A stretch of DNA of 32,454 bases, from contig JABHWG010000026.1 in assembly GCA_018657885.1 (NCBI GenBank), forward strand, positions 1 through 32,454, read 5' to 3'. The position numbers and the translations under genes were made by a program. Below the pieces are notes generated by a model that saw only the letters and a list, made by a program, of their open reading frames with translations, was not told the origin of the DNA and made no database searches. Shown here piece by piece: positions 2 through 2,095 of this stretch. The DNA comes from Pelagibacteraceae bacterium (lineage in GTDB: Bacteria; Pseudomonadota; Alphaproteobacteria; HIMB59; GCA-002718135). Numbering within the stretch: the first letter of the stretch is position 1; every line of letters begins with the position of its first letter.

Positions 2-625
2 CTTGCCGCTGATTTAATTAATATAAAAGAAGAAGTTAAATTAGTTGATATTAATGGAGCAGAATATATTCATATTGATATAATGGATGGGCATTATGTT
101 CCCAATATTACTTTTGGACCCAATATAGTTAAATCACTTCGACCTATAACAAAAAAAGTGCTTGATGTTCATCTAATGATAACTCCAGTCGCTAAATATA
201 TTGATAGTTTCATTGAAGCTGGAGCTGACATTGTAAGTTTTCACCCAGATGCAGATGAAACTTTTGTAGATATTATTAAACAAATTAAATCTAACAACTG
301 TAAAGCTGGAATTGCTATTCATCCAAATATAGATGTGTCAGATATTGTTCAATATTTGGAGATGGAAGATTTAGTTGTTGTCATGACTGTTGTGCCTGGA
401 TTTGGTGGTCAAAAGTTTATGGAATCTGAAGTAAATAAAATTATAGAGCTCAAAAAAATTAAAGATGATAAAAGATTTAGTTTTGAAATTGAAATTGATG
501 GTGGAATAAATCAAGAAACTGCAAAAATTTGCAAAAGAAATGGTGCGGATGTTTTAGTTGCTGGATCTTATATATTTTCAAAAAATAAAGAAAATTACAA
601 ATCAATGATAGAGTCGCTTAGATAA
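2..625 (+). CDS. rpe: Ribulose-phosphate 3-epimerase, 5'-truncated by window edge
   Basis: The frame stays open upstream of the listed ATG at 83 (LAADLINIKEEVKLVDINGAEYIHIDIMDGHYVPN), matching the Rpe N-terminal block. VPGFGGQKF and DGGI motifs present. Confidence 0.93.
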   Translation, partial: LAADLINIKEEVKLVDINGAEYIHIDIMDGHYVPNITFGPNIVKSLRPITKKVLDVHLMITPVAKYIDSFIEAGADIVSFHPDADETFVDIIKQIKSNNCKAGIAIHPNIDVSDIVQYLEMEDLVVVMTVVPGFGGQKFMESEVNKIIELKKIKDDKRFSFEIEIDGGINQETAKICKRNGADVLVAGSYIFSKNKENYKSMIESLR

Positions 626-1512
626 TGGACTGGGATAAATTAAAATCATTTTATGAAATAGCGCTTTCAAAAAGTATATCTAAAGCTAGTGCAAAACTAA
701 ATATTAGTCAATCAGCTCTAAGTAGACAAATTCAAGATTTAGAATATGATTTAAAAACACCATTGTTTATTAGACATCAAAAAGGTGTAAGATTAACAGA
801 GCAGGGTGAAAATTTATTTACTACTGTTAGCCAAATCAATACATCCGTTTCAGGTTTTGAAAAAAAACTAATTGATAAAAAAACAAAACCCGTTGGAAGA
901 CTTAATATAAGCACCACAGTAGGGTTTGGATCTACATGGTTAACACCAAGAATTACTAAATTTACTAACCAATATCCAGATATGGAAGTTAGCATTATTA
1001 TGTCAGATGAAGAAGTAGATTTAGCCAGTAGAATTGCTGATGTCGCTGTACGTGTAAAAAAACCCACTCAAGCAAATTTAATTTTTAAAAAATTTGTCAA
1101 TTTTCATAATCATATTTATGGATCTTCTGATTATTTAAAAAGTGTAGGTATTCCAAGAAATATTAATGATTTAGATAAACACAGTTTAATATGTTTTGGA
1201 TCAGGATTACCCTCTCCTATCTCAAATATTGACTGGATTTTAAAATTAGGGAAAGAAGGCATTAAAAGAAAACCAAAATTTAGAGTTAATAGTATTTATG
1301 GCATGTCATTAGCTGTTGAAAAAGGAGCTGGTTTGGCTTCACTTCCAGACTATATGGTTGCTGACAAACCCCATTTAGTAAGAGTTCTGCCCAACATAGA
1401 AGGGCCTTCATATCAAACTTACTTTGTTTATACGGAAGCTTTCAAAAATGATCGTAGATTAGAGGTTTTTAGAGATTTTTTGTTTAACGAAGCAAAAGAT
1501 TGGCATTATTAA
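625..1512 (+). CDS. LysR-family transcriptional regulator
   Basis: N-terminal LysR HTH (LKSFYEIALSKSISKASAKLNISQSALSRQIQDLE) and substrate-binding domain. Overlaps the rpe stop by 1 nt (TAATG). Confidence 0.95.
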   Translation: MDWDKLKSFYEIALSKSISKASAKLNISQSALSRQIQDLEYDLKTPLFIRHQKGVRLTEQGENLFTTVSQINTSVSGFEKKLIDKKTKPVGRLNISTTVGFGSTWLTPRITKFTNQYPDMEVSIIMSDEEVDLASRIADVAVRVKKPTQANLIFKKFVNFHNHIYGSSDYLKSVGIPRNINDLDKHSLICFGSGLPSPISNIDWILKLGKEGIKRKPKFRVNSIYGMSLAVEKGAGLASLPDYMVADKPHLVRVLPNIEGPSYQTYFVYTEAFKNDRRLEVFRDFLFNEAKDWHY

Positions 1513-1515
1513 TCT

Positions 1516-1543
1516 TTGACTTACTTAAAAGAATTTGTATAAA
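1516..1543 (+). promoter_or_regulatory. Putative sigma70 promoter (TTGACT - 16 nt - TATAAA)
   Basis: TTGACT at 1516-1521 and TATAAA at 1538-1543, just upstream of the 1555 mini-ORF. Predicted start near 1550 would leave a leader of only a few nt. Confidence 0.5.
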
Positions 1544-1554
1544 CCTTCATAAAT

Positions 1555-1638
1555 ATGGGATATCCAAAAAAACATCGTGGTCGTCGTAAAAGAGGGTCTA
1601 AATACAGACGCAATAAAAGACGTCAAAAGAAGAAATAA
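1555..1638 (+). CDS. 27-aa very basic peptide MGYPKKHRGRRKRGSKYRRNKRRQKKK; possible bTHX-like ribosomal peptide
   Basis: Manual translation of ATG 1555 to TAA 1638; below the cutoff of the ORF track. Preceded by a promoter-like sequence, uses CGT/CGC Arg codons in an AT-rich genome, fills an otherwise empty gap. Confidence 0.55.
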   Translation: MGYPKKHRGRRKRGSKYRRNKRRQKKK

Positions 1639-1681
1639 CTACTTTACCACCTTTAATCTTTTTCTTTTCTAATCTATTATG

Positions 1682-1699
1682 TTCTCCAACCTAGGAGAA
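1682..1699 (+). promoter_or_regulatory. Inverted repeat TTCTCC-AACCTA-GGAGAA masking the Shine-Dalgarno of the next gene
   Basis: Perfect 6-bp arms (1682-1687 / 1694-1699). The right arm contains GGAG, 5 nt upstream of ATG 1703. Confidence 0.45.
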
Positions 1700-1702
1700 A
1701 TT

Positions 1703-2095
1703 ATGTCTATTTTTAACCCTATTGAAGAAAAAAAAGCGACAGGAAAAGTAAAAAAGATTTTTAATAATATTAAAAAAGAAAGAAAAATAAAATCAATTCC
1801 AAATTTTTGGCGAACTATCGCTAATGATCCCGATACCCTTGAAAGAACTTGGACTTCTCTAAAAGCAATTATGAAGAAAGGTGCTTTAGATCCTTTAACT
1901 AAAGAAATGATTTATATGGCCGTTTCCATGACTAATAGTTGTGAATATTGTATCCGCTCTCATACAGCAGCAGCAAAAAAAAAGGGGATGTCAGATAAGA
2001 TGTTAAAAGAACTTATCGCCATTGTAGGTATGGCAAATGAAACTAATAGGCTTGTAGAGTCTTATCAAGTTGAAGTAGATAACTTTCTAAAGTAA
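1703..2095 (+). CDS. Carboxymuconolactone decarboxylase / AhpD-like alkylhydroperoxidase-family protein
   Basis: CxxC-x3-H motif (SCEYCIRSHT). ORF track starts at 1679, but ATG 1703 has a well-placed AGGAG and begins MSIFNPIEEKKATG. Confidence 0.85.
   Translation: MSIFNPIEEKKATGKVKKIFNNIKKERKIKSIPNFWRTIANDPDTLERTWTSLKAIMKKGALDPLTKEMIYMAVSMTNSCEYCIRSHTAAAKKKGMSDKMLKELIAIVGMANETNRLVESYQVEVDNFLK

Follow-up and report, generated by a model that had tools for sequence, protein, structure and literature searches.

Does the short open reading frame that begins at position 1555 of the analysed DNA encode a genuine peptide, and if so, to which family does the peptide belong and what might it do in the cell? 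The frame lies on the forward strand of the window (the whole stretch of 32,454 nucleotides analysed here, from a genome of 1.63 Mb), starts with the ATG at 1555, ends with the TAA at 1638 and encodes the 27-residue peptide MGYPKKHRGRRKRGSKYRRNKRRQKKK. The initial annotation had described it as an arginine- and lysine-rich mini-gene with a promoter of its own, and had offered a divergent bTHX (Thx) ribosomal peptide as a possible identity.

A conserved gene for a basic peptide

The frame was found where it had been placed, and 17 of its 27 residues are lysine, arginine or histidine. Among the 118 ATG-initiated frames of 20 to 45 residues in the window it is the sole one with at least 60% of these residues, and no frame as basic was found in fifty shuffled windows; composition by itself therefore cannot account for it. 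Further evidence comes from homologue searches and from the substitution pattern, which we analysed on 115 distinct nucleotide sequences. The pN/pS ratio rises from 0.065 in the window's family to 0.107 in SAR11, and all groups taken together give 0.214; the variable sites in the window's family number 6, 1 and 22 at the first, second and third codon positions respectively, so that 22 of 29 fall at the third position. In an alignment of ten sequences from two orders, seventeen of the 27 positions are invariant (1, 3-12, 14, 15, 18, 19, 25 and 27). The frame is under purifying selection and is a genuine gene. The data thus bear out the proposal of a conserved mini-gene that has a promoter of its own: the frame is conserved, change is biased towards synonymous sites, which had been suggested as a check, and the gene occurs in two orders; conservation in relatives involves the reading frame and not the nucleotides only.

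Occurrence in bacteria

The peptide is common to the HIMB59/AEGEAN-169 order, to which the window belongs, and to the SAR11 order, with M-G-Y-P-K-K-H-R-G-R-R-K-x-G-S-(K)-x-R-R as the core shared by both. A protein search found it in 65 of 81 genomes of relatives. Within the window's order 126 of 162 genomes carry it, as do all twenty of those that are at least 90% complete; the genomes without it are incomplete ones. Peptide identity is 96-100% within the window's family and 81% in the order's second family, and a class-wide search added the same peptide in a third family with genomes of 1.2-1.3 Mb. A scan of the genome collection showed that relatives in the Pelagibacteraceae, including Ca. 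Pelagibacter ubique HIMB058, carry the same peptides.

A total of 112 out of 135 good genomes of the SAR11 order have the peptide. One family of this order has it almost universally whereas the other (f143; G446, G447, G449 and others) has none, and a further family, f146, encodes MGYPKKHRGRRKRGSTWRRNKRRNKKK. The gene is single copy and near-universal in HIMB59/AEGEAN-169 and in the Pelagibacteraceae. Elsewhere, a search of 386 genomes of the class and 299 of the phylum (about 680) gave no peptide and only weak matches at E > 0.001. Ten of these weak outside matches (E 0.001-1) were inspected; each is a chance translation of GC-rich sequence, and the MxYPKKHRGRR start is missing from all ten.

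Few cells in the sea are as numerous as those of SAR11 and AEGEAN-169/HIMB59, and this near-universal gene is absent from the protein family libraries searched. The kinship of HIMB59/AEGEAN-169 with SAR11 is disputed, and the peptide is a rare shared character bearing on whether HIMB59 belongs with SAR11 (PMC3815206, PMC10308909). The gene is nevertheless missing from family f143 and, given the phage copies, its shared presence may stem either from transfer or from common descent with loss.

Gene neighbours

The upstream neighbour in the window is a LysR-family regulator (625-1512, forward strand; Pfam PF00126/PF03466) and the downstream neighbour is a carboxymuconolactone decarboxylase-like protein (1679-2095, forward strand; PF02627). 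The lysR gene adjoins the peptide gene in the window's family only, where the peptide gene lies either between lysR and the carboxymuconolactone decarboxylase gene or directly before sbmA. The carboxymuconolactone decarboxylase-like gene is kept in some relatives and missing in several, and sbmA is then the next gene.

Other lineages have a different context; the names lyase, MFS, rpoH and mnmA used for it are our own reading of the sequences. MFS and SelR genes lie close to the peptide gene in the second family, and in f146 it stands beside rpoH. In most SAR11 genomes it is flanked by a cystathionine-lyase-like gene and by a Frag1-like membrane-protein gene, which it precedes by about 6 nt and which is followed by mnmA; in the deeper SAR11 genera it and mnmA converge directly. 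This places it next to mnmA, a possible link to translation, in several SAR11 genera; the window's family shows no such link. Since the neighbours differ between lineages, the peptide gene is an independent unit; it is not a leader peptide and does not belong to a LysR operon.

Phage copies

Scans of IMG/VR gave 30 distinct viral contigs (predicted viral) that encode the peptide core, M[GASP]YPKKH[RK]GRRKxGS..., in products of 28-40 residues, a few of which start with GTG. These copies are also under purifying selection, with pN/pS of 0.10-0.28. The contigs fall into at least four unrelated kinds of context. The first contains a phage endonuclease I, a DnaA C-terminal domain and HNH. The second is the head module of HTVC023P-type podoviruses (L209-L211, L220, L222, L225, L227, L229, L234-L239, L248-L250 and L252), where the gene lies upstream of GroES and beside scaffold and capsid genes and other basic small frames. 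The immediate flanks in these contigs are a 154-aa and a 63-aa open reading frame, with GroES downstream. Cultured capsid relatives of this kind include the Pelagibacter phages HTVC023P and HTVC027P; in these two and in five others sharing the group-B capsid, no peptide was found in the region read.

The third kind comprises large phages with tRNA arrays (L214, L228 and L223), two of which, L214 and L228, also have a tmRNA. The arrays enclosing the peptide gene (L214:4388-10070 and L228:638-10433) hold 10-13 tRNA genes and a tmRNA gene, and in L214 the peptide gene starts 19 nt past a tRNA-Ser. This context amounts to three contigs, which may be from related phages, and such arrays also gather unrelated frames. 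The fourth kind includes the contigs L206/L240 and L232/L246. Nucleotide searches with the phage contexts gave no annotated peptide; the matches of L214 are short and the identified ones are tRNA genes. A tblastn search of cultured phages with the peptide gave no match either, but such a query is probably masked by the low-complexity filter, and we do not count this result as a negative.

Proposed function

Judging from the sequences, we favour, at a probability of roughly one half, a new peptide family whose members would bind rRNA, associate with the ribosome and be exchanged between marine bacteria and phages in the way bS21 is. RNA binding, association with the ribosome and an effect on translation are what we infer, and a ribosomal role is plausible in a wider sense than that of a bTHX. 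The 27-residue housekeeping peptide would be a small ribosome-associated protein, specific to its lineages, that binds ribosomal RNA. It would consist of an extended arm (residues 1-14), in which YPKKHRGRRKxGS hardly varies, and of a basic helix that begins near S15. Its mode of action would be as in bTHX, bS22/mS38 or eL41, yet it would form a separate family, and the phage copies, like phage bS21, might be supplied to host ribosomes or remodel them in the course of infection.

An AlphaFold2 model, made with 13 relatives on a 35-residue phage relative and not on the 27-residue window peptide, has an extended arm at residues 1-14 and a helix at 15-34, with a mean pLDDT of 84 and a pTM of 0.42. 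The conserved part is thus probably the arm and the tail a basic helix, and from so short a peptide the model says nothing further.

Several observations point to the ribosome. Invariance to this extent is what one would expect if the peptide were packed onto an unchanging surface of nucleic acid. Glycine, proline, histidine, tyrosine and serine are fixed among the basic residues, the gene is near-universal, single copy and independent of its neighbours, and it is carried by unrelated phages, some of them with a neighbourhood of translation genes. Phages are known to encode fourteen ribosomal proteins, and phage bS21 and bL12 enter 70S ribosomes (PMC6375957). The peptide resembles bS21 (as in pelagiphage HTVC008M) and bL12 in being small and possibly translation-linked and in its occurrence, amid various gene neighbours, in hosts as well as in unrelated phages (PMC6375957); unlike them, it stands outside the described ribosomal protein families, and its entry into the ribosome is here only proposed.

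Other observations argue against the ribosomal reading. The peptide matches no solved ribosomal chain and no curated family, its arginine codon pattern differs from that of the ribosomal-protein cluster (described below), and family f143 of the SAR11 order lives without it. The tRNA-array contexts are few and possibly related, as noted above, and a basic peptide could equally bind DNA. The fuller proposal, namely an undescribed ribosome component of SAR11 and HIMB59 whose phage versions retune host translation and whose chromosomal and phage copies are exchanged, is put forward as more tentative, with odds somewhat below even. A peptide that did sit on the ribosome would enlarge a minimal ribosome by one component and give phages a new means of acting on translation.

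The main rival is a nucleic-acid-condensing role, in which the bacterial peptide would belong to the nucleoid and resemble a protamine or an AT-hook, whereas the phage version would help to package DNA or lie inside the virion. Its lysine and arginine content and the HRGRRK core in AT-rich genomes fit such a role, as does the head-module location in one phage group, close to scaffold and capsid genes and other basic small frames. However, HTVC023P and HTVC027P, close relatives of that very group, are without the peptide at the head-module place, and other phages have the gene in a nuclease and replication module or in a tRNA array. The invariant Y3, P4, H7, G9, G14 and S15 exceed what charge would need, and no AT-hook or histone-like family matched at E<=10. 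We regard condensation as rather unlikely, at about half the weight given to ribosome association.

Relation to known families

No match to the peptide was found in Pfam, NCBIfam, PHROGs, Rfam (over threshold) or the PDB sequences, and in the literature we found no paper with its sequence and no named family. A 2019 study reported at least three short open reading frames of unknown function in intergenic regions of the SAR11 strain HIMB5 (PMC6429828). These resemble the peptide gene in being short SAR11 intergenic frames, and the peptide gene may be among them; HIMB59 is unmentioned in the main text of that study.

Two known kinds of small basic ribosomal protein were compared with the peptide through HMMs, one built from Thermus and gammaproteobacterial Thx and the other from bS22, with nine peptides and 1000 shuffles of each. 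The first comparison asks whether the peptide could be a divergent bS22/mS38 (COX24_C, PF08213) or eL41, or an analogue of either, and thus a basic peptide of the h44/h45 bridge. These proteins are alike in charge and size, with 25-35 residues of which 55-65% are basic and a basic helix, which in our peptide is predicted. Both bS22 and eL41, themselves small and basic, sit at an inter-subunit bridge, and a bS22-like site requires a basic helix (PMC10085706). The peptides score slightly above their shuffles with the bS22 HMM, but 6-27% of the shuffles reach the observed score and the hhalign probability is 0.4%, so the similarity is not significant. Neither the peptides nor eleven genomes of the group gave a match to PF08213, and the invariant extended YPKKHRG arm before the helix is a further difference from bS22/mS38 and eL41. 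We consider this relationship improbable.

The second comparison concerns the bTHX identity. What stands of the resemblance noted in the initial annotation is a length of 27 residues, the MG start, the KKK tail and the internal GS, and the Thermus Thx sequence quoted there proved correct; the peptide and Thx are each the very basic product of a single short gene. Similarity beyond composition did not hold up. Searches with the Pfam Thx model, PF17070, which had been suggested as a check, gave no match at E<=10 for the window peptide or six relatives, and NCBIfam was likewise without a match. With the Thx HMM, 65-99% of the shuffles, which have the peptides' own composition, reach or exceed the scores of the real peptides, whereas in the positive control the gammaproteobacterial Thx model scored Thermus Thx at 49.3 against a null maximum of 20.5. 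The hhalign probability is 0.1% for the peptide against Thx and 98.9% for true Thx pairs.

The signatures of the family are also missing. Thermus Thx and six gammaproteobacterial Thx share GKGD together with a central GK-xxx-G(S/T)YG or a close variant, and neither is present in any of the peptides, which thus are without GKGD, T8 and GSYG. The two are taxonomically separate as well: no genome of the window's order and none of 241 sampled alphaproteobacteria has a Thx match over the cut-off. Membership of bTHX is therefore not supported, and we give it very little credence.

A leader peptide (uORF) that controls the gene after it, or else conservation of an RNA element, would explain a short frame near the start of a transcript and the SAR11 copy placed some 6 nt before the membrane-protein gene. 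The downstream gene, however, varies by lineage and is sometimes convergent, changes concentrate at third positions in the window's family, and the start and the peptide are retained in phages with other neighbours. The sole Rfam match is a sub-threshold nuoG RNA, and this explanation fares slightly worse still than bTHX. A spurious frame, or conservation of the DNA alone, which small size and unusual composition might suggest, is virtually precluded by the pN/pS of 0.065-0.107, by conservation across orders and phages and by the absence of comparable frames from shuffled windows.

Promoter, leader and codon usage

The upstream sequence TTGACT-N16-TATAAA, proposed earlier as the promoter, was confirmed and is conserved in the family. 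The -35-like hexamer TTGACT occupies 1516-1521 and the -10-like hexamer TATAAA occupies 1538-1543 on the forward strand, with a 16-nt spacer between them and 11 nt from the latter to the ATG. The LysR stop (1512) is separated from the ATG by 42 nt only, and these contain both hexamers, the spacer and the 11 further nucleotides. TTGACTT is present in all 47 distinct sequences of the window's family and is combined with the conserved TGTATA core at a constant 16-nt spacer in 46 of them; the distance from promoter to ATG shifts by a few nucleotides. A generic promoter scan of the window left the pair unreported because the -10 hexamer ends in A at its sixth position. In the second family of the HIMB59 order, TATTAT or TATAGT is found instead, some 8 nt upstream of the ATG.

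No Shine-Dalgarno sequence was found upstream of the window ATG. Motifs of this kind were found in 60 of 64 SAR11 copies versus none of 47 in the window's family, the motif set being slightly wider for SAR11. From the sequences, the copies of the HIMB59 order would have a short 5' leader of a few nucleotides or none. Copies of this order (window 1516-1554, its relatives and L047-L049) appear leaderless-like, with the promoter 8-11 nt before the ATG and no Shine-Dalgarno sequence.

CGT and CGC arginine codons had been read as a sign of strong expression. The ribosomal-protein cluster of the same genome (L205, G000:C127:4000-20000) contradicts this, as 82% of its arginine codons are AGA and 5% are CGT, whereas CGT makes up 50% of those in the peptide gene. 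AGA accounts for 64% of arginine codons in the other genes of the window, and its preference in the ribosomal-protein cluster is the reverse of the usual rule of CGT in highly expressed genes.
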